Origin: Corallium rubrum
Taxonomy: Eukaryota > Cnidaria > Anthozoa > Scleralcyonacea > Coralliidae
Length of the DNA stretch: 64,000 nucleotides
Assembly: GCA_964035015.1 (NCBI GenBank)
Contig: OZ036013.1
Coordinates: 9,309,366 to 9,373,365, forward strand
Reading direction: 5' to 3'
A model generated the notes under the pieces. That model saw only the letters and a list, made by a program, of their open reading frames with translations. It made no database searches and was not told the DNA's origin. Each line of letters starts with the position of its first letter. The first letter of the stretch is position 1. The translations under genes and the position numbers were made by a program. Positions 4,167 through 59,151 of the stretch are shown here, piece by piece.

Positions 4167-4293
4167 TGTGTTCTAAAAGACCTCATTAAGCCCTTAAACC
4201 GCCACGCCAGAAAATTGACAATAGATAGTATTAATAAAAGATATATTTACAAACACACACAAAATTTTTAAAATTATTTACAAGCACACAAAG

Positions 4294-9782: not shown

Positions 9783-10060
9783 CGGTTATGACGTATAATA
9801 CCAGGGCGGTTGAGTAACAGCTGGGGTTGGGGGGAAAAGTTAGGATTAGAGTGTCCTAAAGGAGCCTGAGAAATAATGACGTATGCATAAATAATAAGTC
9901 GGTATGACGTAGTGAATACCAGGGGGGTTAAGTAACAGCTAGAGCTAGGGGGAAAAGTTAGGGTTACTATGTCCCAAAGGAACATGAGAAATAATGACGT
10001 ATGCATAATGAGATTAGGGTTAGAACGTCACAAAGGAGAATGAATAAATAATAAGTTGAA
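9783..10060. repeat. Tandem repeat, about 125 bp unit, two full copies and a partial one
   Basis: Units share GGTATGACGTA...AATACCAGGG, AGTAACAGCT, GGGGAAAAGTTAGG and AGAAATAATGACGTATGCAT in the same order. The third unit is cut short. No coding content. Confidence 0.75.
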
Positions 10061-10112
10061 TATTTAATGAGGCGGCATCCCTTTGGGGTCTATAGTGGGG
10101 TCTATCACTACT

Positions 10113-31016: not shown

Positions 31017-31128
31017 TACATAAGTAGTAATGTGCGGGGCTTAATGGACCCGGTTTTATGCGAAAGTAAGCCCTTAATAATTCATGAGTTATGAATATTC
31101 AATGAGGTCGGAGTTCCGAAGAGTGAAC

Positions 31129-31264
31129 GAAGCATTTCCGAGTCCGAAGCATTTCCGAGTCCGATAAAACGCCGAAGCATTTCCGAGTCCGAAGCATTTC
31201 CGAGTCCGATAAAACGCCGAAGCATTTCCGAGTCCGAAGCATTTCCGAGTCCGATAAAACGCCG
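31129..31264. repeat. Subterminal tandem repeat of the palindromic element, left copy
   Basis: GAAGCATTTCCGAGTCC units in pairs are separated by GATAAAACGCC. The inverted copy is at 56690-56829. Frames across it (RFIGLGNASDSEML repeats) are artefacts. It lies between the terminus and the first gene, so it may include promoter elements or a replication-related repeat. Confidence 0.75.
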
Positions 31265-31297
31265 AGTGATTGCTGAGATTACATCATTTTTAACACG

Positions 31298-31666
31298 ATG
31301 GCCGAACAAACAATTTGGGCTGAATTGCAGGAAAATAATATCGAGATAGAGAAAGATACGTTATGTTTTTACATGAATAGATGCTTTGGAGAGCATGATG
31401 AATTGTATGAGAGGATTATCGACCAAATCAACGGTGATAACTTGCCGAGTAGCTTGTATAATATTTATGAAGAGATGGATCTTGTGAATTTCGGTAGAAT
31501 TATTGCTTATTTGACTCTAGTGTTGAAAGTGAGTGATTATTGCGATACCGAAACACTTTGCCAAGCTGTTAGAAGAACTGCCAAAGATTTTAGGCGAATT
31601 GACTTGAGGCAATACGAAACTGTAAAACACTCGTGGATAAAAAGACTGATTAGATTTCTAACATAA
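31298..31666 (+). CDS. Small Bcl-2-like protein, left arm copy
   Basis: 122 residues, predicted largely helical. Residues 59-72 (EMDLVNFGRIIAYL) match the BH1 pattern of Bcl-2 family proteins, where an N-W-G-R core follows an acidic-hydrophobic lead; here Phe replaces Trp (NFGR, residues 64-67). Near the C-terminus Trp113 in HSWIKRLIRF could be the BH2 Trp. Adintovirus-class elements are reported to carry Bcl-2 homologues, which would block host apoptosis. The protein is shorter than usual and has no obvious C-terminal membrane anchor. The call rests on one motif plus context. The identical gene is present in the right arm. Confidence 0.5.
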   Translation: MAEQTIWAELQENNIEIEKDTLCFYMNRCFGEHDELYERIIDQINGDNLPSSLYNIYEEMDLVNFGRIIAYLTLVLKVSDYCDTETLCQAVRRTAKDFRRIDLRQYETVKHSWIKRLIRFLT

Positions 31667-31886
31667 CTGTTGTGAGGGATGTTAGAGCGTTGCTAAGGCG
31701 AATTTGAATATTACAAGTTCGGGCGAAAAAAAGTCATTAAAAATCGATTACACAAAGTCATTAAGCCTCCGCTCGCTCAAGATATGGACGACTGATATAT
31801 TATAATAGATTACAGCAGAGCAAGAGTTTGACGTTTGTAATTCTTTCGAGTGTATTTGTGGCTCTTAAAAGAGCCGGTTTGATTGT

Positions 31887-32390
31887 GTGCACATTATATG
31901 TGGGCGAAGCGGAATATACAATTTTTGCTTGTTGTTCCTCTTTCTTTGCACGCAGAACACATTGGTGTCGTGTCCCACGGTTTACGACACACAGCACACC
32001 TCACTAATGGTCATTGATGATTTACAAAATGAATTGTCCGACAACGTTGAGCTTGCGAATCTATTCACCAAGGGTTCTCATCACAGATCAATATCCGTTA
32101 TATTTCTACAGCAGGCTTTGTATAATAAAGGGAAATACTCGCGTCTGTGCTCACTTAATTGCCATTATATGGTTCTTTTCAAAAGTCCGCGCGACCAAAC
32201 AATTATTCATACTTTAGCCAGACAAATGTTTCCTGGCTGTGGTCAATATCTAGTAGAAGCTTATCAAAATGCTACTGAGGAACCTTACAGTTACCTTTTC
32301 GTTGATTTGCATCCCCAAACTGATGATAAATATAGACTACGCGCGAAGATATTTCCAGATGAGTGGCAAATCGTTTACGTCAAGAAGTGA
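31887..32390 (+). pseudogene. Packaging ATPase, C-terminal half only, left arm copy
   Basis: From about 31990 the frame matches the Polinton packaging ATPase from just before Walker B (SLMVIDDLQ) through FTKGSHHRSISVIFLQQ and PYSYLFVDLHP to the C-terminus (VYVKK). The Walker A half is absent: upstream sequence (residues 1-30 of the open frame) is unrelated and hydrophobic. Without the P-loop it cannot hydrolyse ATP. It could be a fossil or a dominant-negative partner; the second is speculation. The right-arm copy is 56068-55565. Confidence 0.75.
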
Positions 32391-32429
32391 TAAAATAACT
32401 GACCTGAGTGATAACCGAATCATTTCATT

Positions 32430-32846
32430 ATGTCTACTCATATGCGAAAGAACTTTAATATGTTGAGCGAGTACGAACAGGGTTTAGTATTTGAGAGGAA
32501 AGTGGAATTAATTACTCGTTCGCTCGAGTGGGGAATCGAAAATGAACAACTTGGGTTAACAGCGAACCTTACGGATTCCTGGACACCAGAAGAAAGACAA
32601 CAGTTTTTGATGGACTGGCAAGATGATGAGGCATTGCTACAGAACGAACGATTAGGGCTCGCTTCAAACCATATGGATTCTTGGACCCCTGAACAACGAG
32701 AAAATTTCATGATGGATTGGCAAGACGACGAACCTTTGCTACAGACTGGCCGTGGGGAGAAGAGATCAATCGACGACGTAGACGATGGTGCAAGTACATC
32801 TGAACAGGTTAGCGGAGCCGTTCATTTTTGTGAGATGAGAAGATGA
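32430..32846 (+). pseudogene. N-terminal piece of pPolB, left arm copy
   Basis: 138 residues. Two imperfect repeats (DSWTPEERQQFLMDWQDDEALL and DSWTPEQRENFMMDWQDDEPLL) match the NWTDDERRQFNEDWANDE segment of PolB exon 2 of the first Polinton. The KRSIDDVDDG block matches KRKRGDVDES there. The frame then runs into a TGCTCATGAGCA repeat array. All exonuclease and polymerase motifs are missing, so the main part of PolB has been deleted. The right-arm copy is 55525-55109. Confidence 0.7.
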
Positions 32847-32996
32847 GCACATGCTCATAACTGCTCATGAGCACTTGCTCATTTGCTCATAACTGCTCAT
32901 GAGCACTTGCTCATTTGCTCATAACTGCTCATGAGCACTTGCTCATTTGCTCATATGGCCCGATCAGGCCCGATGGCCCGATTGCTGACTAGACGT
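32847..32996. repeat. GCTCATGAGC tandem array and GGCCCGAT repeats, left arm
   Basis: Three units of about 32 bp (ACTTGCTCATTTGCTCATAA plus CTGCTCATGAGC) are followed by GGCCCGATCAGGCCCGATGGCCCGAT. The same sequences form the symmetry centre of the element at 53610-53930 and recur inverted at 54970-55110. Confidence 0.8.
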
Positions 32997-33059
32997 CTAA
33001 ATGTCATTTTATGAGTTATATTACACGCACTTGCGAATCAGAGAACTTCATTTCGAAAC

Positions 33060-33269
33060 ATGCCACGAAGACGTAAAGATTGTCCCTTATGTGGGAAACA
33101 AAGTTTGGTAAAGCTATCCAACCATTTGGCTGATGTTCATCAACTTTCTCGCGAGAAAAGGCAGCCATATCTTACTCAAGCAAGATTAAATGCGTTAGAG
33201 AATGATCGACAAAAACCGGTTGCTAAAGTTGAAATAACTATAGAAAGCATGGACGAAAGAAATTCCTAG
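33060..33269 (+). CDS. Small C2H2 zinc-finger protein (MPRRRKD family), left arm copy
   Basis: 69 residues, one finger with Cys8, Cys11, His23 and His28, homologous to the gene at 3790-4026. It is intact. The right-arm copy (54895-54686) differs by Arg/Cys at residue 32. Likely nucleic-acid binding; function unknown. Confidence 0.65.
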   Translation: MPRRRKDCPLCGKQSLVKLSNHLADVHQLSREKRQPYLTQARLNALENDRQKPVAKVEITIESMDERNS

Positions 33270-33346
33270 TCCAAAAATCAAGTGGTGTTTATTAACAAGG
33301 ACTTTCCGTCCCTACTCGTCATTTACAGGTTGTCTGAGCTGAAAGA

Positions 33347-33907
33347 ATGAGCTGCCAATATTGTGGGAAAATGTTTAGTAAAGGCTATAATCTAAGACGG
33401 CACGAAAACGATTATTGTCCGTCAAGGGAATACACTGACACTGAGGAGCCTGATATGGAATCTGATGAAGAAATGTCAAGCTCGTCGTATGATGAAAACA
33501 GCCAGAGGTCCGAAGATGATGGTGAAGTAAAGGAAGAGATTGATCCTTGGGCAACCATGATTGACGATGCAAAAGTGACGGTTCGGCCAGAATATGATGA
33601 ACTGTTAAAAACGTTGCAAATGGAAGGGCAAGAAGAAAGTGTAGCTAAGCAGAAAGCCTTTGAAAAAATTCTCCCTGAACTTCAGAAAGAATTCGCTGAC
33701 GTTTACGTGGATAATTTACGTTGGATGAAAGCACTTAAAAAGGATCCTGTGCATGGAAAGATCATGGAAACGAAGCAGACACTTGTGAACGAAGACTCGT
33801 TTGATCCTGATGAAGCTTTATCTGCAGCGGTTGACAAAAGAAAGTTTCTTTTGAAACAGCTTTTAGAAGATCAAGGACGTTTTTCAGATAGTGATGATGA
33901 TCAGTGA
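33347..33907 (+). CDS. C2H2 zinc-finger protein with acidic middle, left arm copy
   Basis: 186 residues. An N-terminal finger C-x2-C-x12-H-x4-C (MSCQYCGKMFSKGYNLRRHE then NDYC) is followed by a Glu/Ser/Asp-rich stretch (residues 30-65) and a helical domain to an acidic SDSDDDQ end. It may act as a transcription or packaging factor; I know no assigned function. The CMC element inserted 14 bp past the stop. The right-arm copy at 54608-54048 is identical in protein sequence. Confidence 0.6.
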   Translation: MSCQYCGKMFSKGYNLRRHENDYCPSREYTDTEEPDMESDEEMSSSSYDENSQRSEDDGEVKEEIDPWATMIDDAKVTVRPEYDELLKTLQMEGQEESVAKQKAFEKILPELQKEFADVYVDNLRWMKALKKDPVHGKIMETKQTLVNEDSFDPDEALSAAVDKRKFLLKQLLEDQGRFSDSDDDQ

Positions 33908-33921
33908 ATCGATGTAATGCT

Positions 33922-34740
33922 CACAGCAAAATCCTAAATTCTTAGCAAGAATAAGATTTCTTATTTTAAGCAAATCATTGCTTGAAATAAGAATTTTAGC
34001 AAAATTTTACTAGGTAAGAACTGCCAATTCTTGAATTGAGAACAAATTATCTAAACAAGATCATGCACTTCTTAAATTAAGCAAAGTTTTACTTGACTAG
34101 AATTAACATTATGACTGCTATAATTTTAATATAAGTTAAATAGCATGCAATTGTTGTCTAAGAACAATTGTTGTTTTAATTCGATATACTATTCGAATTA
34201 TTTTGGTCATTCTCATTTTAAGCAATCTATTTCTCAAAATAAGAAATCCAATAAATTTAAGAATTACTAATTCTTAAATTAAGGAAAAATATTCTCAACA
34301 AGAATTTGTATTCTTAAATTAAGAATATTAATACTTGTTGTATGTATAATGTCCGCATTTATACCGATGCTTGCACTGATGAAAATTACTTTGATACATG
34401 TACACACAAAAGTTAATTGTTAAAGTGTGTAATAGAGAGATTTTGAAGACAAATTGTACAAAGTGATTAGCAAAGCTTTGAAAGCTTTTCAAAAACAGAG
34501 TAAATGACCCAAAACTAAAAATAACTAAACATGCGATCAATCTTCTAACAATCCACTATATGCTGCTTGCAATTTTGAAATATTTATTGTACCTAAAGAG
34601 GTAGCTATTAATATATACAAAAGCAAGTTATAAATATGTACAGTAGTTACAGTATTATCAATTAAGTGTTTTATATATCTGTGCAAAATACATACACTTA
34701 TTGAGATTTACATTTCTATAAATCTTGATCAGTCCCTTGC
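33922..34740. repeat. Left subterminal region of the CMC element
   Basis: Rich in short TTCTTAAATTAAG / CTTATTTTAAGC words in both orientations, like the right end (52980-53488) with CTTGTTTTAAGTA and TTCTTGGTAAGAATT. Such subterminal motif clusters are typical transposase-binding regions of CACTA-type elements. No gene. Confidence 0.6.
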
Positions 34741-34752
34741 ATGTTTTATAGT

Positions 34753-37700
34753 TCAATTATTGATTGGACTAGTACCCTGTACATATTCATGCATAACATC
34801 AACAATTTCATACTTAGGAGATACAAAACAGTTTTCCTGCATATCACTTTTTGCATGAAAAACATTGAAGTCCACTAAATTCTCATAAGGAACAACACAG
34901 ACCACATCAGGTATGACCTTCTTAACTAAGTACGCCTGGTGCAAGTAGTCCAAGCAAAATGTGTCAAAAGCACAAACTTCGAAATAAACAAAGTCACTTA
35001 TTAACCAAATCTGCCTTAGCTGTCCAAATACTGGAAGAGGTGGGTCATTGCATACACCAATAGCAATCACTGCATCTTTGCAAAATTTCGTACCATTTAA
35101 TACAATCCAGCTCACCTTGTGCACCTTTTCCAGTTGTATGCCAGGTAATAAACCAGATTCATTAAATGTTTGCTGTAGAGCACATAGTTCCTCCCCACTG
35201 GCAACACGAACTACTCCACACTTCTTCTCTGTTGCAAACAATGGATGTGAGCTAGGACTTTCTTCCACATCTCCAAAATTTGAACATTCAAGGAACTGGT
35301 GTCTTTTTGCCAAAGACAAAGGCAGATTTTTAAAATTCTGCTTTCTTGCTAATTCCTTAAAATACTTATGAGCAGATTCAAAGTTAAAACACGATGAACG
35401 AATCAGGGGGCCCAAATGTTTTATCATTCCAGGAATATGCAGCATGTAATGCTGCTTAGGAATAATATTCTTATCTGGAAACAATTCTCGAAATTTGTTG
35501 AGATGTTCCTTTATCAACAGCTTCAAATATTGGATGCTCTCTAGCCGGATAACAGGTGCAAACACAAGTTGAACAATTTCTATAAGCTCAACTAAAAATG
35601 TGTAATGGTCATCATTTGTGTTAACCATAGGGCACAGAATGTAGGGCAAGATACGAAGGAATAATCTTGCTTGGGCTGCATTATACTTTAGCTTGTACCT
35701 TTCTTCTCCACTGAAAACTGCTTCTCTGAGATGCCCTGGTTTATCACTCATCTCTGAATATCCATAGTTGTGATTAAGGATAGCATTATTTAGGCGTTGA
35801 AGGGTAATGGCTCTACTTTCAATAAAATAAAGTAGAACGAGTCGGATTTCGTATTGCACCACACCCTCCAACAGAGTGTGCATAATATCCTGTGGCAACT
35901 GCTTTGTGACATCAAATTCAGGAAGTTGACATAAGGCACTTCGTTTGTTGACACCATAAGTGGTCTGCAAATCACTTTGGACAACATCAGTTGGGGCTTG
36001 CTCAATTGCAGTACATTCTTGGTTGTAGAGATCTATGGTGCGTTGTGTAAAAGCTTCCTCGACAAAGTCTTCTTGCATTTTGTCAAAGTTGCAATAACAC
36101 GATCTGCATTTTTGGAATGCAACACCAACACCTTCTTTAAAACCACCCCAAAGATGCTGACCTAATGTGTCCCCAGCACAAATTACAACTTTCCCAAAAA
36201 CCATTTCTTCAGCACCATTCACAACCATAGGAACTCCATGGTAAAGTTGAATAATGTCTTTGATGGCAGGCTGCAAGATGGATTCAATCCCATACTTCTT
36301 TACCAGCTTTGCATTTGCTATTGCCAACAGCCTAACCGCACAATGCTTTGACCTGAATTTTGGATTTAAATTGGCCAAAGTATAATAAAACATATCCACT
36401 TTGTGTGTACCAGCATTGCTACCAAGAGGATTGCATACTTCCAACTCATCGTGATAAAGAACCAACATCAGAGCATTCTTATGGCTTTGAAAATATTCAT
36501 CACTTCGATATACATCCCCATCACAAATATCATAAAATAACCCTTGCTCACACTGTGTGGGCTCTTTCAAAACAATGCCAGCAATTCTTTTATTACTCAA
36601 GACTTGCCTGAGGCTTTCTAGAATAGGGATGTATATGAAGGACTCATTTTTCTCACTAATAACTCTCTTTGGACCTTTTTTCTTTCTCACCAATTTCTTG
36701 CCAAGGCATATTTCAGTATAGTCCACATAATTAAAGTTATCTTTAATATAAGTGGCATGTAAGGGCTCCATCTCTATACCACAGAATGGATTTGCTACCT
36801 GGCTAAATACCTTGTTGACAAGAGACTTGTTGTCAACTGTGCATGGCTCCAAAGATGTAATCAGTTGGTGTTTCACTGAGGCTAACACTTGGTTTACCAA
36901 ACATGTTGTGCTTTCAATGACTGTATTCATGGATGTCTGTATTAAAGAAAAACAATCTTTATTTAAAATAATTTATTATTAAAAATGGAATGGTTTATTG
37001 ATTTTTCCTGAATCAGTATTAAAATCAACAATCTTACATGTGTGATTATTCATGGTTATCTCACATGCGTAGAATTCATTTCATATTTTTTAACATCTAT
37101 TATCTAAGGCTTACAAACAGGTACACTGTATATGCACTGTATGTCTGACATCCACACGCATGTACTGTACTTTAGTTAAACAGTTTATATTAGAGCACCT
37201 GAGCATAGATGAAAAGATTCTAGGTCAATTCCTCTTTGGGGCTCAAAAACAATTTGCTGGGTTACTAATAAAGCATAACTGAGTAGTAAACAGTTTACAA
37301 TGTAACAAGACAAACTATTCTTTTTCTGTTCAAATTTCACATTTCTTTTGTAAATACACCCATAATTGAAGGAAGACCTATTTCCTACTCTATTTTGTAA
37401 TGCAGACAAGAAAGGTTTCAAATGGTAACATTTTCTTAGTCCAATTAAATCAGTTAATAGCCTTAAAAAAGGTAATTGAACATTACCTGTGGTATTTTAC
37501 TTCGCTCTTTAACTTTCAATATAAATGATGCAGCACTCTTTTTAATATCAATATTATTTTCCTAAAATAATAGAATTATTTGCAAAATTTAGTATTACAT
37601 GTAGCACATAAAATTATAGATGTGTAAAAAATTATTCATATACAGTATAAATAACAGTCATCTTCATTTTTAGTATTTTTAACCATGAAGGTGACTGGTA

Positions 37701-37857
37701 TTTAGTCAAAGATGTTTGATATATCATGCAAGTTAACAGGTACAACAGGTATTCTGACCACCTGGGTTTACAATTGTTGACAAAACCCTGTGCCAATCCA
37801 TATAAACTTATCTATCTATCAATACATGTATATATCTATCAATACATGTATATATAA

Positions 37858-37919
<62 letters not shown>

Positions 37920-38490
37920 TAGATAAGTTTATACCGATTGGCACAGGGTTTTGTCAACAATTGTTAACCTGGGTTAAGACCTTTTAGGCTTTGTCTACAG
38001 CACATTAGACGGTAGACGATAATTCTCCAATTGGTTTCTCACTGAAATTGTATTCTGACTTTTTCTTTTCTGAAAATATTATGCAAACAACAGGAAGGTA
38101 TATATTTACCATGGCCACCTGTTGAGCTTCCAAATCACTTTCACCATCACTGGAGAGGTCGTTCCAATCATCATTTGTGTCATTCTCATGGGTAATAGTG
38201 AATTCAGTATCCAAGGATTCTTGTTCCTCTTGACCCACATCGACACGACGATTAGTGCGGACAGGTTTCTGACTATAGGCTTCTCTGTGGTGTTTAAGCA
38301 CATGTTTGTAAAAAGTATTGTATCTGGTAAATGTTGCAGGACAATCGCCAACGCCGCAGATAATGTGAAAGTTTGGCTCATTACAGTGAACAGTATTGTA
38401 ATGATTTAATAAACTTCTTAAGACTATCGTCTCGAATGTTTCACATCGCGAGCATCTATAAACCTCATGAGTATCATCGCCATCTTGCAT
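34753..38490 (-). CDS. CMC-type DDE transposase with N-terminal zinc fingers (3 exons)
   Basis: Exons 38490-38110, 37561-37487 and 36936-34753, GT-AG and in phase, give 879 residues. The N-terminus has two C2H2-like units (CSRCET...HYNTVH, residues 13-35; CGVGDCPATF...HVLKHH, 45-69) and an acidic linker. The core has LYHDELEVCNPLG (Asp315), a KVDMFYYTLANL strand, CAGDTLGQHLWGGF (Asp408), a CRSCYC pair and DIMHTLLEGVVQYE (Glu509/515). This order suits the CACTA/EnSpm Tnp2-like fold: Asp, Asp, zinc knuckle inserted, Glu. It would cut the CACTG ends. No lesion seen. Assignment to CMC rests on this pattern plus the element termini. Confidence 0.7.
37768..37968. repeat. Foldback element with (TA)n loop in the transposase intron
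   Basis: ACAATTGTTGACAAAACCCTGTGCCAAT-type arm sequence (37771-37822) and its inverted copy (37911-37966) surround a TA tract. The design equals the hairpins with TA tracts at 20.6-20.9 kb. Confidence 0.7.
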
Positions 38491-38764
38491 CCTTGGTTAT
38501 GAATCACATATCACAGATCACATTCACATATCATGATCAATATGATCTTCAATATGGTCTTCGTATTTTTCCGGACACTTCGTATTATTTCGTATACGGC
38601 CGGAACCCACTCGTGCAACATAGTCACGTGGCACATGGGATGTCAGTTGTCAGTGCTTCGATTGTTCGATAAGCGTCCATTGTCAACGGAGCTGAGCCAA
38701 GTGAGCGATGGTTATATTCTACGTGCGTTTATTCACGAATTGAAAGGTCTTGAAAGCGTCTGAA
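38491..38764. promoter_or_regulatory. Divergent promoter region between transposase gene and a plus-strand first exon
   Basis: 274 bp separate the transposase start (38490, minus) from an ATG at 38765 (plus) that opens a 61-nt exon. The head-to-head arrangement suggests a shared bidirectional promoter. No core element can be fixed by eye. Confidence 0.35.
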
Positions 38765-38825
38765 ATGACTTCCTTGTTAGAGCAGATGAAAAGGGAAGCT
38801 CCTGATGCAGCTAAGATATTTGAAG
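38765..38825 (+). CDS. Candidate first coding exon (20 codons), possibly of the SAMD3-like gene
   Basis: ATG opens MTSLLEQMKREAPDAAKIFE and reaches a good donor (GAAG|GTAAGA) in phase 1. The second exon of the SAMD3-like gene (47006) begins in phase 1, so splicing across the opposite-strand FEN-like gene would be in frame. The alternative first exon is 46900-46933, also phase 1. Which one is used is open. Confidence 0.35.
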
Positions 38826-39782
38826 GTAAGAGCACAATGTATTTAAACACACAAAATGATCGTCGTACAATGCGATTGCCGTTGATCGTTCAAAGTCCAA
38901 ACGCATTGTAAAAGTTTCTAATTATAAGCTTGAAATTTCCGTTTGACGTGGTTCATAATCAGTTTAACGATAAGCTACTAATTTCAATGTGTAATGTTTG
39001 TTGTGTATATTCTAAATGTCAGTCGTTTAAAGCTGTTTTGCTGTGATAAGAAGCGGCTATAATTTGCATACTTTCCGGCAATTTTCACTCAAACCACGAA
39101 GCAGGAATATTATTCTTTATTTTTGTGTTACATAACAAAATAGTGGCAGAGATTTGATTGAAAACTCTCCTCTTGTCGTTCTGACCATAAGAAAGACGGC
39201 GAATAGGAGCAGAACATACAAGATTGAAAGAGATTGAGGTTGAATCTATCGTTGATTACTAGTCGCCATGTAGGCCGTCACATGCGACTTAATAAAAGCA
39301 CTAGAAATGACATTCCGTTGCACACAACGCGAGGCTAAATAATTTTACGATGATAAGGCATTTCATGATCCTGGAAATAGATATTTTCGAAGCCCCCGTT
39401 CGTAAGTGTGCACAATTACTCGAAACCGGCAATTGAAGTTTGTGACGTCATCACAATGGAATTTTACATTAACGCTCAATTTATGCGCTATTTCCGAGTT
39501 ATTTCACAACGATACGGTAGTCGGTGGTCTTGTGAATGGCTATTTTCAAGCTCGTAGCCATACGTATACACAATAACGCAAAACAAGCAAAATATGGTTA
39601 TGACGTCATCAGAATGGAATGTTACTCGTAAGGTCTTAGCTATGCGCAGTTTTTCTGAAATAATTTGTTAAATTGACGTGAAACAAAGATAAGAATTCAT
39701 TTAAATGAATAAGAGATCTATAAATTGTAGAATACAGGAGCATAAACGTTTACCCTACCTCTCTTACAACCGGAGAAGGACA
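38826..39782. other. No gene seen between candidate exon and FEN-like gene
   Basis: Sequence of mixed composition with scattered TGACGTCATCA words (39441, 39602). No supported frame. Confidence 0.4.
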
Positions 39783-46668: not shown

Positions 46669-46899
46669 TTTCCAGGTGGCCGCGTTGCCTGATCGCAGGC
46701 AAAAGTTCGTGTTGCCTAGGTGATACCACGAAGAGTGTTCAGAAATTCAAAATGGCGGCCAGTTACGGGGATAGAAACTGGCACAAGTTTGATGTTAATT
46801 TTCTACTTATTGTGCACAATTGCCGATGGGGGCTTGGCATTTCTTAACACAGGAGACTTAAATACATTAAACTATGAAAGAATTTCTTAGCCTCGCGAC

Positions 46900-47301
46900 A
46901 TGTGCAACGAACTTGAACGAAAGGATGCAACAGGTGACGGCCTAATGTGACAACTCTATTTTGTTCCATCAAAATTTACATAACACAGTGTATCGTTCCT
47001 TTTAGATAATGGTTTCAGTGATGACAACGACATTCAACAACTGTGTTACGAGACCGTAAAGGAATTGTTTCCTGGTTCAGGTGCTAAATTTTTGTTGCAA
47101 AGATCAAAAGTCTGGAAAATGATTAAGCAATCAAACGTAAGTTTTCCCGGTTGTGCTATATTAAAATCACCGATTATAAGCCCACCGAATATAAGGGGAC
47201 ACTAACCAAGTTATTTTTTTTTACTTGGCCTTAGACAATTTTATTACTAGTTAGTTTCATGCCACATGCATATGGGGTGGTACTCTTCAGATAAGATGGT
47301 C

Positions 47302-47357
<56 letters not shown>

Positions 47358-47786
47358 CTATATACTTTTTTCTAGGATACAACAGATATTTTAAGTGTAT
47401 CAAGTGGTGAAAGTTCCACAAGTACCTGCTCATCTCCTACACCTATCCATACCACTACTACTCAAAAGATTGAAAGTCCATCACACATTGTAATGATGTC
47501 TCCTGAGTACACTATATACCGGGATAAAGACCTGGACGTGGCTTCTCAGTCTGGAGAGATACCTGATGAATTGAAGCATAGACTCATTCGATCAACAATT
47601 TATAATATGCAGGCAGCAGCTTATCGTCCACCTTTTAATAGGCGTCCTAATAATGCTGAATTACAAGAGATGGCAAAGTCTTTAGTATTGACATACCCTT
47701 GTCTTAAGGACCCAGAAACTGGTCATGTGAGTACTGCTGTAGTATACTGTAGTATAACTAGATACACTGTACAGTATGTGTTATGT

Positions 47787-47820
<34 letters not shown>

Positions 47821-50800
47821 TATACTGTATATATATTCTTGTGTTGAACAGGATATCTCACCGCTTTCCTCACTCATGGGATATCCTGGTCAACACTTAT
47901 ATTTAAGAAATGGAAAATGTCCACCTGTAGTTATAGCCTGATGCAAACACAAGAGTGAGTTGGAATAATTATGTGAACCCAAATTGTAGGCGAGTGGTTT
48001 ACATAAGTATTTTTGAATTTTCCCAGATGCAATTGAGTTTTTGCATCAGGTTATATAAACACAGGGCATGCATTTTCTATTTTTTTGTTACAACTGTGTT
48101 TGTATAGCCTGATATAAGCACAGTAACTGATCGATCACAGTGTGTGTAAGATTAAATATATAGATCACAGTGATTAATAGTAATTATTTTACACTTTCCC
48201 TAGGGTGCACTGTTTAAAAAATTACAAAAGCGTTTATATAATATGAAGGTGGTTGGATCTGGGTGTAAGAAGGAGCCATCCGAAAAAAGAAAGCTACCAA
48301 AAAAAGAGATCGTTGTTGACAATGCGAATGTCAAACGAGGGAAAAAAGATGTCCAGGTAGTTGAAACGTCAGAGGATGATGACGATGATTCCAGCTCTGA
48401 TGTCACAGGTGTAAACAGCGGAAAGAGATCAAGTAAGTAAAGTTAAAAGATAAGATTAAGAAGAAATGTTTAACCCCTTGGAGATTTCTCCCCTTGATGA
48501 GTAAAATTAGCAGAATGTTAGCCAGAGTAAAACACTAAAAACTGAATTAATGATACAGGTGTGAAAGGCTTATTACAAGCCAAGTTGTATAATAAAATAG
48601 TTTAGTTATGATATGGTACAGTATGGTTTCCAATTATGTCTGGTTGACAAAATATGAACTTACATTAACAATTATTAATCTACAAGTCTTAGCATTTTTC
48701 ACACAAGAAAATGTAGAGCTCTTGCACTCTATTCTACTTTGTGAATTAAAAGCAAAAGCTGATTAAATATTTTACAAGCAGCTGCTTTACGTGCAATCAA
48801 CTTTGCTAATACCAGACATTGATTTGCCCAAAATGTTTGTTTCGTCAATACATGACTTTCGAATCTCAACTGCACATCAGAATGGTGCGTTCTGACTCAG
48901 GATAAAAGTCATTTCAGTTCATAACATCTAGCTGAGGTCTCTGTATAAATGAGTTTGGAAATATAAATGCAATGCAAATGAATACTGTCAGTCTTTGCCT
49001 GATGTTATGAATTGAAATGAGTTTTATCCCGATTCAGAATTGAATTCAAAAGTTGTGTATACATCTCAAACTCATTAATACAGTCAGTTGTTGGCACCTA
49101 AGCGTGTACACCACCTGTCAAAACATGTTCTAAATTTAAGTCAAAGTTAACCATTTTGAAATCAACACCATGGGATTGGTGAGATGTGATTTGCTAAGGG
49201 AACATTCATGTGACAATAATGTATTGGTTCGAATATATTGAATGAAAACCTAATACCTTTCCAAGGTAAACATTTATAATTATACATGTAACTTTCACAT
49301 TGACATAAAACATGTTTTGACTGGTTGTGTACATGCTTAGGTGCCAACAACTGTAATTCGTGAATAATCAGTCAATTACAATAGTTCATGAATTAAATCA
49401 CCTGAATGAAGTTGGATGCATAGTCCAGTAAAACCCAATATATTAGATGAAAACCATCTAATTCTTAAGATCTCAATTAACTATGTAAAATAAACAAGTT
49501 GCTGGATCATACTCGTGAATAAAATCTCATGAGGGTTTCTTTTAATTGCATTTTCCAATTGGAATTGCTCAATTGAGATGCCATATCAACAACTTGTTTA
49601 TCGTGTTTCATCAGGGGAATTTAAACACTCAAAAACAATAAAACCACTTGGCCTTGTGCTTTCATCATGTTTTCTCCTGTATCAACTGTCAAGTAGTAGA
49701 ATTTTAGTAGAAATTTATATTGTAAAGTTTTTTCATTTCTTTTTGCTGTACAAGCTGTTATAAGTTAAACTCAAGTAATAAAGTTAAAGTCAAGACTCAA
49801 ACCCTCAACTTTCTGAATGCCAACTTCAGAAGATTGTAGGTTTGAATCCCATCTGGACCTTAGAGTTTTTCTCCAACTCTGAGTTTTACTTTAGACAGTT
49901 TGGACAGCAAAAACAAATGAAAAAACTTCACCAACTTCTAGCTGAAAACACTACTACAATAGAAATTTTTATTGTATCATTACAGATTTTCATGGTGGTT
50001 ACTCTCCAGATATTATGGCACGGCACTATAGTGCCTTGATGAAAGAGTGTAAAAAGACCAAGCCAAACAACACAGTTATTAATTCCTACCTTAATAAGGA
50101 GTTCCCTAGTAGAAGGAATTGGCTTCAGGCAACAAATGCCCACAATAGATGTGAAGTGTTCCTTGAAGCCTACCCCTGCTTCACAAATCATGTAGAGGTA
50201 CAGTACAATATACTAGATATCATCCTGCTTTTTACAGTCATTATACTGCAGAAAGATTAAACTAAAGATTTAAACCTAAAGATTTAACTGGATAATGCTA
50301 CTGTTATTTAGTATTTCATTTCATAATTTTGAAGATGAAAAACTACTGACAATGTTAAACCTTTTAAGTCACTATCAGCAAATAGGAAAAATGCTTTGTT
50401 TGAGCTCATTTACATTAGATTTGGCACAATGAAAAGTTTGACATTTCAACTAGGCATTAGTCATGATGCACTTTCAATTTATTTTTTAATACAGTAACTA
50501 TACTGTTGTGTAATGCTAATGTTATCAATAATATTAGAATTACTTATGAATTTATTGGTCAATTACTGTGTTTATATCAGGCTATGCAAACACAGTTGTG
50601 ACATCATGGCAAATTTCTTAGCCTTGTTTTACAAAAGAAATAGAAAATGGATGCCCTGGGTTTATATAACCTGATGCAAACACTCATTCCATTGAAGTGA
50701 GCTTGAGGGCATTCAAAAGTACTTAATATGTAAACCCTTGTCTATGGCTCGGGTTCATATAAACTTTTGAATTCTCCCAGTCACTCTCATGTTTGCATCA

Positions 50801-52567
50801 GGCTATAATATAAACACGGGCAGCCATTTTCTATTTCTTAAATACAGGTTGACAGGTCGACCTCGCATCCAAAATTAAGGATTATCCTTAATTGTCAACC
50901 CACCTAGAATTAAGGATAATCCTTAATTTTAAATGAAAACTCATCCCCCATACCCCAACCCCTAACCACAACCCCCTGGTAGCCCTAAACCTAACCAAAA
51001 AACCCCGGACCCTAAACCTAGTCACAACCCTCCGGAAAAATGACCCACCTCTTAAACCCCGACCACAACACCTTAATTTTGGTAAGAGATCGTGTTGAGG
51101 TTGAATATATGTTAAAATAATCTTTTTGATTTCAGATTGTAGAGGAAGTTCGGCGGTGTTTAAAGATCCAAGAGAATGGGCAACCTGATACCTTTCTTCA
51201 CCAGTGTGCTCAAAGATTGGAAGATGAGATTGACTCCATAGTGTATTATGGAGTTTGTGAGAAGGGCATGAAGCATCCAATGAATCCTAGATTAAGTGAG
51301 TAATTTCTGTGATTATTTTTTGTTCATGTTAGGATTGCATTTAGTAAAACCCAAAACATCTAGTGTGGCTGAGGTGTACATTACTGTACTTCTGGGTTAC
51401 CCTCTCAAACTTGTACTTGACTTCCTTAACCCTTCTCTGCTCAAAGGTTTTCTTATTTTTTAAAAAATATTTATTTCTTTATTATTCCACCATTGTAGAT
51501 ACCAAACTTATTCATACGGTGCAAAATTTGCAAACAATTTTCCCCAGTAAGCATGGGAAGGTGAAGAAGTCTGTGAACATTATTGGCATCTTAGAGGTCA
51601 GTTGAAGAGTTTTCAAATATTACATTTGATATTCACTTTAGCATGAAAATAGTGCTTTTATCTTTATAGAAGTAAATCCCAACCTTTATAATAATCATTC
51701 CACATCATATATTTAATAGATAAGCTATCATTTTGTTTGTTAGTTAGCTCTTCATGAGTTATTAAGTATTTTTATATAATATATAGTATATTACCAAAAC
51801 CAATGATCTGCAGCATGGGTCAAGAAAAATATGTTAATGAACATTAACGAACCCATCTGCATTCCTTAGCCTTTAAAATTGACACAGTGAGATCACTGAA
51901 ATATGATTGGTCCATTTGCCACTTTTGAATTCTCCAACTAAAAGGGTTTAGGAATGCAGATGGAGTTGTCAATGGTTCGGGTGGAAGTCATGACATGATT
52001 TTTTCACCTGTTGCGCATCATCGATAATGTATGCAATAGGGTATCAATATATAGTAAGTGTTACATGCTGTATAGACTTTAAGGGGTATATACTGTATTA
52101 AAGCAAATTTGTGTTGGTTGTCGTTGTTGTTTGGTCAGTTAGTGTTCCTGAAAGGAGCAGACTGTCAAAATATCTATTTTTCTTGCTATTAATGATTTTG
52201 GACAAGCTGTTAGTTATAAACTTGAAATCTTGTTTTCTCTTTTTAGGAGCACGATGATCCTGAAGATTGGTGCAAGCAAAGGAAGGGGGATTTGCCATGC
52301 ATTTTGATTAGCAAAAATGAAGTGCTTCTCTTAGTTGGGAAGAAAATAGTTTGTAATGCTGAGCCGAAAAAGCTGAGTGGACTTATCCTGGCCTTTCTTG
52401 GTATGTTTTATTTATTGGATGTGGACTACCCAGCAGCACACGAAGTTGGGCTTACAATGCTGCATTTCCTCTTTTTCGATGATAAATCTACACCAGCTGA
52501 CATGAATGCCCAGTTCAATACAACATTGGCTGATTACATGAAGTACAAGAAGGCGAATGAGTATTAA
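46900..52567 (+). CDS. SAMD3-like protein of the CMC element (8 exons)
   Basis: Exons 46900-46933, 47006-47136, 47376-47726, 48204-48432, 49986-50197, 51136-51295, 51499-51596 and 52247-52567, all GT-AG and in phase, give 511 residues. The body resembles proteins annotated in fish and invertebrates as 'sterile alpha motif domain-containing protein 3-like': the IRSTIYNMQAAAYRPPFNRRP...YP block (exon 3), a Lys-rich acidic stretch (exon 4), NRRNWL-like SRRNWLQATNAHNR (exon 5), and a C-terminal domain around LPCILISKNEVLLLVGKK...FYLLDVDYP (exon 8). A SAM fold at the N-terminus (exon 2) is possible but not clear. Function unknown; it is a transposon accessory protein by position. It is divergent from the FEN-like gene (231 bp between starts). 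No lesion. Confidence 0.6.
47312..47356. repeat. (TA)n microsatellite in SAMD3-like intron 2
   Basis: A TA run close to the exon 3 acceptor. Another lies in intron 3 near 47788-47820. Confidence 0.9.
47905..48110. mobile_element. MITE-like repeat (TAGCCTGATGCAAACAC family), copy 1
   Basis: TAGCCTGATGCAAACACA and, inverted, TTTTTGCATCAGGTTATATAAAC bound a unit with GAATTTTCCCAG. The same words occur at 50550-50855. Confidence 0.55.
48600..49084. other. SAMD3-like intron 4, unclassified
   Basis: AT-rich with a partly inverted pair GACTCAGGATAAAAGTCATTT / AAATGAGTTTTATCCCGATTC (48893-49037), perhaps a decayed MITE. No gene. Confidence 0.35.
49085..49353. mobile_element. MITE with CAGTTGTTGGCACCTAAG ends
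   Basis: The left CAGTTGTTGGCACCTAAGC and right CTTAGGTGCCAACAACTG are exact inverted repeats. The inner TCAAAACATGTTCTAAA motif relates it to the MITE at 30478-30696. Confidence 0.75.
50550..50855. mobile_element. MITE-like repeat (TAGCCTGATGCAAACAC family), copy 2
   Basis: Bounded by GTGTTTATATCAGGCTATGC and GCATCAGGCTATAATATAAACAC in inverted arrangement, with AGAAATAGAAAATGG and its complement inside. It is fuller than copy 1. Confidence 0.6.
50875..51075. repeat. AATTAAGGATTATCC inverted pair and degenerate CCCTAACC tract
   Basis: Two AATTAAGGATTATCCTTAATT palindromic words at 50873-50925, then about 110 bp of C-rich sequence with CCCTAAACCTA words. Not long or regular enough to be telomeric. 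Confidence 0.5.
51597..52246. other. SAMD3-like intron 7, nothing recognised
   Basis: 650 bp of AT-rich sequence without a repeat or frame I can name. Confidence 0.4.
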
Positions 52568-52639
52568 AAAAAAACTCTACATTTTTCTATTATGTAATGT
52601 ATAATGCATGCCACATTTTCTTTAGATATATTACCAATG

Positions 52640-52826
52640 TCGTTCCCAGAGCCCATGTTCCCCACCTGGGAAACGAGAGACTCTGGGATAATCCGTTTCA
52701 CATCAATATTTCATTGGCTGATGAATATGATTACTCTTCTTCCGATAACAAGAATCCTGTGATGGGGTGAATGGATTATCCCAGAGCCTCTCGTTTCGCG
52801 GGTGGGGAATGTGGGCTCTGGGAACG
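52640..52826. mobile_element. MITE with ~60 bp inverted repeats (TCGTTCCCAGAGCCCA ends)
   Basis: TCGTTCCCAGAGCCCATGTT at the left pairs with the right end. The pairing continues through ACGAGAGACTCTGGGATAATCC against GGATTATCCCAGAGCCTCTC. 187 bp in total, just after the SAMD3-like stop. Confidence 0.8.
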
Positions 52827-52979
52827 AGATTGACATATTACTTGATTGTATATTTAAATTACATAATTAGTGCATGGATATATACTTTGTTGGATTGTAA
52901 CATCATATATTTGACTTATACTTTAGTAAATATTTTAATTTTGGATTGTAGCGGTTTTTAGAGAAATCTGGGTTAAGTG

Positions 52980-53488
52980 AATCATGTTATGTATATGTAT
53001 AAATATATTTTAATCTTATTCTTAAGAAGTCTTAAGTTGATGCGTATATTTTATATATAATATTTTTAGTAAGTATAGAGATATTCTTGGTATGAACGCT
53101 TGATTTAATATATCTTTTGTTAAGAAAAAATATTCTTGGTAAGAATTCTTGATTCAAGTGTATTTTTACCTAACAAGTAAAAGTTTTCTAACTATACGGA
53201 ATAGTAACTTTTTACTTGTTTTAAGTAATGTTTTTCTCAAAACAAGTAATAATTTTCTTAAAACAAGAAAATATTTATTTAATCAAGTATTTTTCTACTT
53301 AAAATAAGAATAAAAAATTCTTGTTTTAAGTATTATTTTACTTGATAAGCAAAATATTCTCGGTTAGAATTCTCAGTAAGTAAAACTTTTCTAACTATGC
53401 GGAATAGTAAGAATTTACTTGTTTTAAGTAATATTGGACTTGAAATAAGTATTTTTTTTCTTGAAATAAGAATTAGGATTTTGCAGTG
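52980..53488. repeat. Right subterminal region of the CMC element
   Basis: Dense TTCTTGGTAAGAATTCTTG, AAAACAAGTAA and CTTGTTTTAAGTA words in both orientations, ending in the GGATTTTGCAGTG terminus. Probable transposase-binding sites. Confidence 0.65.
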
Positions 53489-54035
53489 CTTATGTGAAAT
53501 AAAAATTTATCAAAATTGTATTGTGTCTTGTTTCATTTTTTAAGCAATAATAAGTCCTTGAAGAAAAAAAAATGTACACCAGAATTAAGCCGTACCTTCT
53601 ATCGGGCCTGATCGGGCCATCGGGCCTGATCGGGCCATATGAGCAAATGAGCAAGTGCTCATGAGCAGTTATGAGCAAATGAGCAAGTGCTCATGAGCAG
53701 TTATGAGCAAATGAGCAAGTGCTCATGAGCAGTTATGAGCAAATGAGCAAGTGCACTTGCTCATTTGCTCATAACTGCTCATGAGCACTTGCTCATTTGC
53801 TCATAACTGCTCATGAGCACTTGCTCATTTGCTCATAAGTGCTCATGAGCACTTGCTCATTTGCTCATAACTGCTCATGAGCACTTGCTCATTTGCTCAG
53901 GCCCGATGGCCCGATCAGGCCCGATAGAAGGTACGGCTTAATTCTGGTGTACATTTTTTTCTTCAAGGACTTATTATTGCTTAAAAAATGAAACAAGACA
54001 CAATACAATTTTGATAAATTTTTATTTCACATAAG
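53489..54035. repeat. Symmetry centre of the palindromic Polinton-derived element
   Basis: A 547-bp inverted repeat centred at about 53753/53754 (GAGCAAGTGCACTTGCTC). The arms contain the GCTCATGAGC array and GGCCCGAT repeats, then GAAGGTACGGCTTAATTC and TTCAAGGACTTATTATTGC in mirror order. Arm lengths differ slightly by repeat-unit number. It joins the two 3.2 kb arms head to head. Confidence 0.85.
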
Positions 54036-54047
54036 CATTACATCGAT

Positions 54048-54608
54048 TCACTGATCATCATCACTATCTGAAAAACGTCCTTGATCTTCTAAAAGCTGTT
54101 TCAAAAGAAACTTTCTTTTGTCAACCGCTGCAGATAAAGCTTCATCAGGATCAAACGAGTCTTCGTTCACAAGTGTCTGCTTCGTTTCCATGATCTTTCC
54201 ATGCACAGGATCCTTTTTAAGTGCTTTCATCCAACGTAAATTATCCACGTAAACGTCAGCGAATTCTTTCTGAAGTTCAGGGAGAATTTTTTCAAAGGCT
54301 TTCTGCTTAGCTACACTTTCTTCTTGCCCTTCCATTTGCAACGTTTTTAACAGTTCATCATATTCTGGCCGAACCGTCACTTTTGCATCGTCAATCATGG
54401 TTGCCCAAGGATCAATCTCTTCCTTTACTTCACCATCATCTTCGGACCTCTGGCTGTTTTCATCATACGACGAGCTTGACATTTCTTCATCAGATTCCAT
54501 ATCAGGCTCCTCAGTGTCAGTGTATTCCCTTGACGGACAATAATCGTTTTCGTGCCGTCTTAGATTATAGCCTTTACTAAACATTTTCCCACAATATTGG
54601 CAGCTCAT
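54048..54608 (-). CDS. C2H2 zinc-finger protein with acidic middle, right arm copy
   Basis: Inverted duplicate of 33347-33907 with an identical protein (186 residues, finger at the N-terminus, acidic tail). See that entry for domains. Confidence 0.6.
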   Translation of the reverse strand: MSCQYCGKMFSKGYNLRRHENDYCPSREYTDTEEPDMESDEEMSSSSYDENSQRSEDDGEVKEEIDPWATMIDDAKVTVRPEYDELLKTLQMEGQEESVAKQKAFEKILPELQKEFADVYVDNLRWMKALKKDPVHGKIMETKQTLVNEDSFDPDEALSAAVDKRKFLLKQLLEDQGRFSDSDDDQ

Positions 54609-54685
54609 TCTTTCAGCTCAGACAACCTGTAAATGACGAGTAGGGACGGAAAGTCCTTGTTAATAAACACCACTTGATTTTTGGA

Positions 54686-54895
54686 CTAGGAATTTCTTTC
54701 GTCCATGCTTTCTATAGTTATTTCAACTTTAGCAACCGGTTTTTGTCGATCATTCTCTAACGCATTTAATCTTGCTTGAGTAAGATATGGCTGCCTTTTC
54801 TCGCAAGAAAGTTGATGAACATCAGCCAAATGGTTGGATAGCTTTACCAAACTTTGTTTCCCACATAAGGGACAATCTTTACGTCTTCGTGGCAT
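54686..54895 (-). CDS. Small C2H2 zinc-finger protein (MPRRRKD family), right arm copy
   Basis: Inverted duplicate of 33060-33269 with one residue changed (Cys in place of Arg at position 32, in QLSCEKRQ). Finger ligands intact. Confidence 0.65.
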   Translation of the reverse strand: MPRRRKDCPLCGKQSLVKLSNHLADVHQLSCEKRQPYLTQARLNALENDRQKPVAKVEITIESMDERNS

Positions 54896-54969
54896 GTTTC
54901 GAAATGAAGTTCTCTGATTCGCAAGTGCGTGTAATATAACTCATAAAATGACATTTAGACGTCTAGTCA

Positions 54970-55110
54970 GCAATCGGGCCATCGGGCCTGATCGGGCCAT
55001 ATGAGCAAATGAGCAAGTGCTCATGAGCAGTTATGAGCAAATGAGCAAGTGCTCATGAGCAGTTATGAGCAAATGAGCAAGTGCTCATGAGCAGTTATGA
55101 GCATGTGCTC
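54970..55110. repeat. GCTCATGAGC array, right arm
   Basis: Mirror copy of 32847-32996 with the GGCCCGAT motif at its outer side. Confidence 0.8.
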
Positions 55111-55525
55111 ATCTTCTCATCTCACAAAAATGAACGGCTCCGCTAACCTGTTCAGATGTACTTGCACCATCGTCTACGTCGTCGATTGATCTCTTCTCCC
55201 CACGGCCAGTCTGTAGCAAAGGTTCGTCGTCTTGCCAATCCATCATGAAATTTTCTCGTTGTTCAGGGGTCCAAGAATCCATATGGTTTGAAGCGAGCCC
55301 TAATCGTTCGTTCTGTAGCAATGCCTCATCATCTTGCCAGTCCATCAAAAACTGTTGTCTTTCTTCTGGTGTCCAGGAATCCGTAAGGTTCGCTGTTAAC
55401 CCAAGTTGTTCATTTTCGATTCCCCACTCGAGCGAACGAGTAATTAATTCCACTTTCCTCTCAAATACTAAACCCTGTTCGTACTCGCTCAACATATTAA
55501 AGTTCTTTCGCATATGAGTAGACAT
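55109..55525 (-). pseudogene. N-terminal piece of pPolB, right arm copy
   Basis: Inverted duplicate of 32430-32846, same 138-residue frame, lacking all catalytic motifs. Confidence 0.7.
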
Positions 55526-55564
55526 AATGAAATGATTCGGTTATCACTCAGGTCAGTTATTTTA

Positions 55565-56068
55565 TCACTTCTTGACGTAAACGATTTGCCACTCATCTGG
55601 AAATATCTTCGCGCGTAGTCTATATTTATCATCAGTTTGGGGATGCAAATCAACGAAAAGGTAACTGTAAGGTTCCTCAGTAGCATTTTGATAAGCTTCT
55701 ACTAGATATTGACCACAGCCAGGAAACATTTGTCTGGCTAAAGTATGAATAATTGTTTGGTCGCGCGGACTTTTGAAAAGAACCATATAATGGCAATTAA
55801 GTGAGCACAGACGCGAGTATTTCCCTTTATTATACAAAGCCTGCTGTAGAAATATAACGGATATTGATCTGTGATGAGAACCCTTGGTGAATAGATTCGC
55901 AAGCTCAACGTTGTCGGACAATTCATTTTGTAAATCATCAATGACCATTAGTGAGGTGTGCTGTGTGTCGTAAACCGTGGGACACGACACCAATGTGTTC
56001 TGCGTGCAAAGAAAGAGGAACAACAAGCAAAAATTGTATATTCCGCTTCGCCCACATATAATGTGCAC
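55565..56068 (-). pseudogene. Packaging ATPase C-terminal half, right arm copy
   Basis: Inverted duplicate of 31887-32390 with identical reading. It starts just before Walker B and has no P-loop. Confidence 0.75.
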
Positions 56069-56288
56069 ACAATCAAACCGGCTCTTTTAAGAGCCACAAA
56101 TACACTCGAAAGAATTACAAACGTCAAACTCTTGCTCTGCTGTAATCTATTATAATATATCAGTCGTCCATATCTTGAGCGAGCGGAGGCTTAATGACTT
56201 TGTTTAATCGATTTTTAATGACTTTTTTTCGCCCGAACTTGTAATATTCAAATTCGCCTTAGCAACGCTCTAACATCCCTCACAACAG

Positions 56289-56657
56289 TTATGTTAGAAA
56301 TCTAATCAGTCTTTTTATCCACGAGTGTTTTACAGTTTCGTATTGCCTCAAGTCAATTCGCCTAAAATCTTTGGCAGTTCTTCTAACAGCTTGGCAAAGT
56401 GTTTCGGTATCGCAATAATCACTCACTTTCAACACTAGAGTCAAATAAGCAATAATTCTACCGAAATTCACAAGATCCATCTCTTCATAAATATTATACA
56501 AGCTACTCGGCAAGTTATCACCGTTGATTTGGTCGATAATCCTCTCATACAATTCATCATGCTCTCCAAAGCATCTATTCATGTAAAAACATAACGTATC
56601 TTTCTCTATCTCGATATTATTTTCCTGCAATTCAGCCCAAATTGTTTGTTCGGCCAT
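56289..56657 (-). CDS. Small Bcl-2-like protein, right arm copy
   Basis: Inverted duplicate of 31298-31666, protein identical, with the BH1-like NFGR core at residues 64-67. Both copies are open from start to stop. Confidence 0.5.
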   Translation of the reverse strand: MAEQTIWAELQENNIEIEKDTLCFYMNRCFGEHDELYERIIDQINGDNLPSSLYNIYEEMDLVNFGRIIAYLTLVLKVSDYCDTETLCQAVRRTAKDFRRIDLRQYETVKHSWIKRLIRFLT

Positions 56658-56689
56658 CGTGTTAAAAATGATGTAATCTCAGCAATCAC

Positions 56690-56829
56690 TCGGCGATTTA
56701 TCGGACTCGGAAATGCTTCGGACTCGGAAATGCTTCGGCGTTTTATCGGACTCGGAAATGCTTCGGACTCGGAAATGCTTCGGCGTTTTATCGGACTCGG
56801 AAATGCTTCGGACTCGGAAATGCTTCGTT
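56690..56829. repeat. Subterminal GGACTCGGAAATGCTTC array, right arm
   Basis: Inverted copy of 31129-31264 with the same paired-unit structure. Confidence 0.75.
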
Positions 56830-56984
56830 CACTCTTCGGAACTCCGACCTCATTGAATATTCATAACTCATGAATTATTAAGGGTTACTCATGAATTATT
56901 AAGGGCTTACTTTCGCATAAAACCGGGTCCATTAAGCCCCGCACATTACTACTTACATAGGCCTATAAATATACATATATACAT

Positions 56985-58549: not shown

Positions 58550-59151
58550 GTGTTTCCCGCGCAATACTCGCGAACCAATACTCGCGAACCAATACTCGCG
58601 GGTCAAATTTTACCGCGAGAATAACTTGCGCGCATATAAAGTGCGCATACAATGAAATCATCTTTACTTAGTTTATTTAATGCAGTAGTTTTTATTTACA
58701 AATAATTGGTATGATTCATAAATTGAAAATATAACGATAAATAATTTTATATTTATATTTGGATGTATATAAACAAAGCATGCATTATATATAAATAATG
58801 CATGCATTATATATAAATAATGCGTACATTATATGTAAACAAAGTGGACACTAAGAAATAAAGTGTATGTTATTTGTATATAATGAACCACTGTTTTAAG
58901 AATAAATTTTATTATTTGTAAATAATGTAAACGTTATATGTAAATAAATTTTATTATTTATAAATAATGTAAACGTTATATGTAAATAAATTTTATTATT
59001 TATAAATAATGCGCACATTATGTATGCAACAATATACCATGCTTTCGTTAAAAGAATTAATTGTTAGTAAATAATGATATCGAATCAACTAAATAACGTG
59101 AAATAATGCGAAATACCTACTAAATAATTATTTTACAAATGGCGCCTCATA
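58550..59151. repeat. Right terminal inverted repeat of the IS3EU-like element
   Basis: Inverted copy of 21670-22301. Near its inner edge the word ACTCGCGAACCAAT is present in extra copies compared with the left repeat. The integrase gene starts about 190 bp inside. The target duplication GTGACA follows at 59152. Confidence 0.8.

Follow-up and report, generated by a model that had tools for sequence, protein, structure and literature searches.

How did a transposable element in the genome of Corallium rubrum come to carry the same end at both of its tips? The element in question, which is of the Polinton type, occupies positions 31023-56953 (C49:9340388-9366318 in the assembly) of a 64,000-nt stretch of DNA (GCA_964035015.1, OZ036013.1; hereafter the window, to which plain coordinates refer), and its relatives were sought in the host assembly (474 Mb). 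It begins with AGTAGTAATGTGCGGGG and ends with the inverse of that sequence; the tips thus read AGTAGT...ACTACT, or (AGT)2...(ACT)2, with the AG...CT terminus of Polintons, and the 6-bp target-site duplication TACATA flanks the whole, again as in Polintons. Between the tips lie two inverted arms, the left of 3,162 bp (counting a 2-bp duplication once) and the right of 3,200 bp, which abut at 53753/53754 with zero spacer. An earlier note on this DNA had described these termini, the duplication and near-identical arms meeting at about 53753, all of which terminus reads and arm alignment confirm; its 6.4-kb palindrome stands for the arms but not for the interval, which is 25,931 bp long because a 19,567-bp insert splits the left arm. 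We read the element as a palindromic Polinton derivative, non-autonomous and inserted in one piece, and think it most likely (probability roughly 0.6) that it arose by snap-back on a protein-primed replicon outside the chromosome.

If the insert, a later addition to the left arm, is set aside, the inverted symmetry about a single centre is complete, as in a snap-back genome. The outer arms (31023-33921 vs. 54034-56953) differ by 3 mismatches (31259, 31751 and 33150) in 2,899 aligned bases and by one 21-bp gap, while the inner arm (53489-53753 vs. 53754-54042) shows 1 mismatch (53700), small indels and one 32-bp repeat of difference; around 53753.5 the palindrome has no mismatch over 85 bases to either side. 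The left arm is broken at 33921 by the insert and resumes at 53489. This resumption and the single TACATA pair around the whole rule out two unrelated flanking elements. Fold-back reads can occur in long-read libraries, and a chimera of this kind in the reads or assembly was considered; however, the flanks differ yet share the 6-bp duplication, the arms are not identical, the insert is present in one arm only, and four sites, each with a duplication of its own, show the same pattern, making an artefact highly improbable.

The composition of the arms points to their source. A full-size Polinton elsewhere in the genome (C52:5732798-5754855; pieces L017, L018 and L011) ends in one and the same terminus on either side and has an imperfect duplication (TGTTTA/TATTTA). 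Its integrase was recognised by rve and chromodomain matches in a stretch of L009 that is 98.7% identical to it, its PolB and ATPase by matches to genes of a Polinton neighbouring the element in the window; two further genes are tentatively labelled capsid and protease by resemblance, the corresponding neighbour open reading frames (ORFs) having no Pfam match. Arm positions 1-1440 correspond to the right end of C52, including sequence past its terminal repeat: positions 1-982 match at 94.9%, positions 980-1442 are identical (463/463), and ~0.67 kb of C52 between these segments is absent from the window element. The join to a zinc-finger mini-element sits inside gene Y of the Polinton, whose start (MSTHMRKNFNM) runs on into the third ORF of the arm. 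Since C52 right-end sequence is present in both arms, one end was duplicated, and both tips go back to a single end of the parent, past its terminal repeat, as in snap-back genomes. The integrated snap-back Polinton of the earlier note is therefore upheld as regards one end at both tips past the shared terminal repeat, but has to be amended in that the arms are chimeric, with half of a zinc-finger mini-Polinton; likewise, the full-length Polinton sharing 31023-33921 that it proposed to seek was found in C52, but only ~1.4 kb is shared, with the ~0.67 kb missing. A palindrome of the zinc-finger mini-element alone is ruled out, as the outer Polinton end is mirrored too.

The left arm has at least 137 matches in the host assembly (best 40 of 504 candidates scored). 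Forty of the 137 matches, at 38 scored loci, reach the 3' part of the zinc-finger half, and two inverted zinc-finger copies were seen at only two of these loci, the window and C1:41.63M. In eight of the ten small zinc-finger loci examined (L012, L015, L016 and L028-L032; 2.5-3.2 kb) the termini read AGT[AG]G and the 6-bp duplications are exact; the outer ends of L026 and L027 were not resolved. Judging by these sequence features, we call the small elements mini-Polintons. Among 17 aligned zinc-finger copies, the two zinc-finger ORFs (ZnF1 and ZnF2) are each open in 15. When nine queries from the neighbour Polinton (no integrase query) were searched against L016 and L028, the sole match was at the place of ORF3 in L028. 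Four loci (L009, L010, L013 and L014) have C52-type left-end sequence at both tips, vs. right-end sequence in the window element, indicating that single ends have been duplicated from either side. Based on a common breakpoint in the mini-element, the left-end hybrids may trace to one fusion, with that of the window element separate. The L009 element (L009:70-9904; 9.8 kb, duplication AGGGGT, left end at both tips) has a 4.6-kb Polinton left-end stretch joined to a zinc-finger mini-element. It encodes an integrase and a GRF zinc ribbon, and one of its ORFs shows a weak LRR N-terminal match.

The search for other copies in the host genome that the earlier note proposed yielded at least three more full palindromes elsewhere in the assembly (8.1, 9.5 and 5.6 kb), each with its own 6-bp duplication. 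With the window element this makes four, whose termini are of three kinds. L010 (C1:41.63M) is 8,130 bp long, with duplication GTCCCT and 7 arm mismatches in 3,948 bases; L034/L035 (C188:940032-949549), picked for an inverted Bcl-2-like pair listed there, is 9,518 bp long, with duplication GTAGTC and 5 mismatches in 4,518; and a palindrome nested in C52 (L018:6617 to L011:3221) is ~5.6 kb long, with duplication GATATT and 0 mismatches in 2,383, the C49 Polinton providing a natural empty site with one GATATT. The counts omit centres and gaps (1-3 gaps each), and arm difference outside the centre in these three is 0-0.18%; BLAST over nearly the full length gives 99.46% identity for L010 and 99.34% for L034. 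The exact 6-bp duplications at all four sites (the three above and TACATA) support integration as palindromes. All four centres fall in tandem arrays with self-complementary units.

The proposed origin would start from a linear extrachromosomal Polinton replicated by protein-primed strand displacement. Within a tandem array the replicating strand would switch or fold back, to be copied back to its own terminus, giving a head-to-head molecule with the replication and integration terminus at each tip; the polymerase and integrase of a full Polinton would then copy and insert this molecule, and a CACTA-like transposon would have entered the left arm afterwards. Snap-back is favored by the few arm mismatches outside the centres (3/2899, 7/3948, 5/4518 and 0/2383), by the location of all four centres in self-complementary arrays together with the different centres of the window element (perfect) and L010 (asymmetric) despite their common array, by outer arms that represent the right end in the window and the left end in L009, L010, L013 and L014, and by arms that stop exactly at the terminus between host flanks that differ from each other. 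The same product would result if two half molecules were joined end to end. An integrated ordinary element might instead have turned palindromic in the chromosome, via fold-back at a break or inverted-end gene conversion; such a change would keep the 6-bp duplications, and fold-back inversions at hairpins or breaks are reported for yeast (PMC7467729, PMC10622511). However, the copied arm breaks off precisely at the terminus and takes in no host flank, and the same precision would be needed at four sites, so that we consider change in situ distinctly unlikely.

Elements with one end at both tips are not confined to full palindromes. There are at least 12 inverted pairs of the end (best 40 of 176 candidates scored; all prevalence counts are lower bounds), eight of which were read full length and two without the right terminus (L036 and C9:1.33M), with C8 read in part (right 3.8 kb) and C9:681009 unread. 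The ten pairs read comprise three full palindromes (window, L010 and C188), four elements whose long symmetric ends enclose a unique centre (L009, L013, L014 and L036) and three full-size elements (C52, C49:10.3M and C9:1.33M); C49:10.3M and C9:1.33M hold internal inverted or repeated stretches. L024/L025 (C9:1329000-1348999) is a full-size Polinton with a ~3 kb inverted pair (about 96-98%) besides its terminal repeats. Long repeats flank a single zinc-finger centre in L013 (2.55 kb), L014 (2.54 kb) and L009 (1.48 kb), and in L036 repeats of at least 3.56 kb enclose a 2.3-kb unique centre. These four elements are the evidence for another route, in which a hybrid end on one side is copied to the other by terminal-repeat pairing (panhandle repair) on an extrachromosomal element, the symmetry lengthening stepwise. 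Alone, this homogenisation neither duplicates the central zinc-finger genes nor yields a spacer-free centre, and four palindromes are complete; we regard it as an unlikely origin of the palindromes, and as a process that is probably also at work.

In the neighbour Polinton, the sequence of a second probe, taken from C188, lies past the terminal repeat and at the left end only. This probe detected at least 4 inverted pairs (C188, C1:61.23M, C86 and C20; best 40 of 1,848 candidates scored). When the ends were read, exact duplications were seen at C1:61.23M (CACGAG) and C86 (AATACA) and no duplication at C20, the right side of which is truncated or mosaic; C8 and C25 are also paired when both listings are combined. 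The interiors of C1:61.23M, C86, C20, C8 and C25 are unread or partly read, and a longer terminal repeat is possible in their families. Beside half of a hybrid element, L022-L023 (C17:97652-111041) contains a long tandem array with a period of ~128 bp.

Several points weigh against snap-back formation. The elements are known from the assembly only, with no extrachromosomal molecule, replication intermediate or particle observed; provision of polymerase and integrase in trans is assumed; and the exact hybrid of the window occurs once only among the scored matches, so that its copying after formation is something we infer. With the exception of the window element, the palindromes are not perfectly symmetric at the very centre, the 60-base symmetry being 0.87 in L010, 0.90 in L034 and 0.72 in the C52-nested palindrome. 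Furthermore, the window and L010 palindromes may not be independent, to judge from their sequences: across the zinc-finger stretch the left arms of the two are identical (0/922), while the window arms differ by 1 and the L010 arms by 3. Such near-identical DNA indicates a recent common source, and one palindrome may have given rise to both and then been remodelled. The long symmetric ends of L013 and L014, which are not full palindromes, indicate that repair between terminal repeats could contribute. Finally, a self-complementary array is also found in the middle of the arm of the window element, off the palindrome centre; this array is predicted to fold strongly as single-stranded DNA (z -4.26, vs. 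-0.58 for one control stretch), as is that of the C52-nested palindrome (-4.52). The broader proposal, that Polintons here repeatedly yield re-integrating snap-back molecules, that zinc-finger mini-Polintons are protein-coding satellites swapping ends, and that chromosomes keep a helper/defective/satellite system, seems to us evenly balanced. The competition with full elements proposed in the earlier note would make the palindrome a defective interfering genome, one that lowers the yield or copy number of the full element.

Table of features in the window, with the inverted counterparts of left-arm features.
Feature	Position	Strand	Mirror copy or remark
TACATA target-site duplication, left	31017-31022		
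Left arm, outer part, terminus to insert	31023-33921	+	
122-aa ORF, tentatively Bcl-2-like (below Pfam cut-off)	31298-31666	+	56289-56657 (-)
A32-like packaging ATPase, C-terminal part	31977-32390	+	55565-55978 (-)
Stretch identical to C52 right end, 463/463	32002-32464	+	arm positions 980-1442
ORF3, 138 aa, fused across join	32430-32846	+	55109-55525 (-)
Join, Polinton right end (start of gene Y) to zinc-finger mini-element	32462-32463	+	55492-55493
Second copy of 32-bp array, mid left arm	32843-32955	+	55000-55112
ZnF1, 69-aa zinc-finger-like ORF	33060-33269	+	54686-54895 (-)
ZnF2, 186-aa C2H2 zinc-finger ORF (below Pfam cut-off), conserved C-terminal domain	33347-33907	+	54048-54608 (-)
Nested insert, 19,567 bp, CACTA/EnSpm-like	33922-53488		ends CACAGCAAAATCCTAA / TTAGGATTTTGCAGTG, CT duplication
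Left arm, inner part, insert to centre	53489-53753	+	
Tandem array, 32-bp self-complementary units, across palindrome centre 53753/53754	53638-53899		
Right arm, inverted copy, unbroken	53754-56953	-	
TACATA target-site duplication, right	56954-56959		
Neighbour Polinton ATPase	3121-3759		
Neighbour Polinton relative of ZnF1	3886-4026		
Neighbour Polinton PolB, over several ORFs	4294-8157		
Neighbour Polinton relative of ORF3	8467-8829		

Five ORFs are present per arm, and ORF comparison bears out the claim that both arms have the same set. The arm ATPase has 49 relatives at E ≤0.01 among 55 candidates, one of them labelled as from the octocoral Paramuricea clavata (79% identical). In tblastn searches with homologues P0001-P0012 the arm match begins at homologue residue 35 to 92; the Walker A part was not found in the arms, where the rest of the N-terminal half gave chance-level matches only (E of 1 or more). 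Of capsid, protease and packaging ATPase, only a C-terminal ATPase fragment is present. ZnF2 has 203 relatives at E ≤0.01 among 280 candidates, with its C-terminal domain conserved in an alignment of 15. The absence of capsid, protease, integrase and polymerase, also claimed previously, agrees with three results: a Pfam scan of the five left-arm ORFs found no PolB, integrase, capsid or protease; when nine pieces of the neighbour Polinton, among them capsid-like, protease-like and PolB sequences but no integrase, were searched by tblastn, the ATPase alone matched the arms; and the integrase-bearing C52 stretch matches the arms in the terminal 0.73 kb only. With no PolB or integrase found in the arms, the element is a non-autonomous derivative rather than an autonomous Polinton. 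Scans of viral contigs with two ATPases gave no relative. Synonymous vs. other changes among young copies number 2 vs. 14 for ZnF1 (16 copies) and 8 vs. 16 for ZnF2 (15 copies), the 17 aligned copies minus one and two with gaps in the respective ORF; these counts are uninformative on selection.

Polintons are thought to replicate like viruses, and if strands switch on a linear replicon with protein priming, a palindrome with one terminus at both tips and a clean target duplication is to be expected. For vertebrate Mavericks, PMC8097293 describes the (AGT)2//(ACT)2 end motif with 6-bp duplications and states that particles have not been observed. The window element resembles Polintons/Mavericks (Adintoviridae-like) in its end motif, 6-bp duplication and ATPase fragment, and its full-size relatives in the genome carry integrase and PolB; it differs in being without polymerase, integrase, capsid and protease and in having the same end at both tips. 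Foldback-type transposons such as Tetris reportedly have very long inverted ends and internal tandem repeats, and not Polinton ends. In defective adenovirus genomes (incomplete particles; a symmetric Ad12 recombinant) a linear, protein-primed genome reportedly bears the same terminus on either side; these are not chromosomal elements, and the literature matches listed include no paper on them. Adeno-associated virus is a parvovirus with hairpin replication, which is not protein-primed. It makes symmetric and asymmetric snapback genomes that are self-complementary, built from one end and symmetric or looped, paralleling the window element and L010, whereas no target duplication is described in the accessible text (PMC8235507). 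Palindromic or snap-back Polintons are not described among the literature matches listed. Recurrent palindromic copies suggest extrachromosomal copying with occasional fold-back; they can be counted in ordinary genome assemblies, making both Polinton replication outside the chromosome and defective or satellite partners of Polintons testable.

CACTA/EnSpm elements have CACTA-like ends and 2-3-bp target duplications. The insert in the left arm has both (CACAG/CACTG ends; CT at 33920-33921 and 53489-53490) and, from its sequence, is read as a CACTA-like transposon. Three other places in the genome carry exact matches to a 22-nt pattern taken from its right end. Its 739-aa ORF (34753-36972) shows a weak match to DUF4218 (E 0.0013, below the Pfam cut-off), a domain of the TNP2/DUF4218-type transposases of CACTA/EnSpm elements, and no match among PDB sequences, and three ORFs of the insert have no NCBIfam match. 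Large ORFs (431 and 582 aa) at 40717-45441 match no NCBIfam family, nor any in Pfam above its cut-off, and perhaps represent another nested element or a captured gene.

The neighbour Polinton (~14.1 kb) occupies positions 1-10112 and extends left to C49:9305340 (L033:5341), with the duplication TATGCC on both sides and terminal repeats of ~280 bp; its ORFs at 137-1946 are tentatively labelled capsid-like and protease-like. Directly right of the palindromic element, a 312-aa ORF (57421-58359, minus strand) with an rve-type integrase core (PF24764) and a helix-turn-helix is probably a separate transposon. An inverted repeat pair of ~0.5 kb (21670-22163 and 58679-59151; 97-99% identical) flanks the element.

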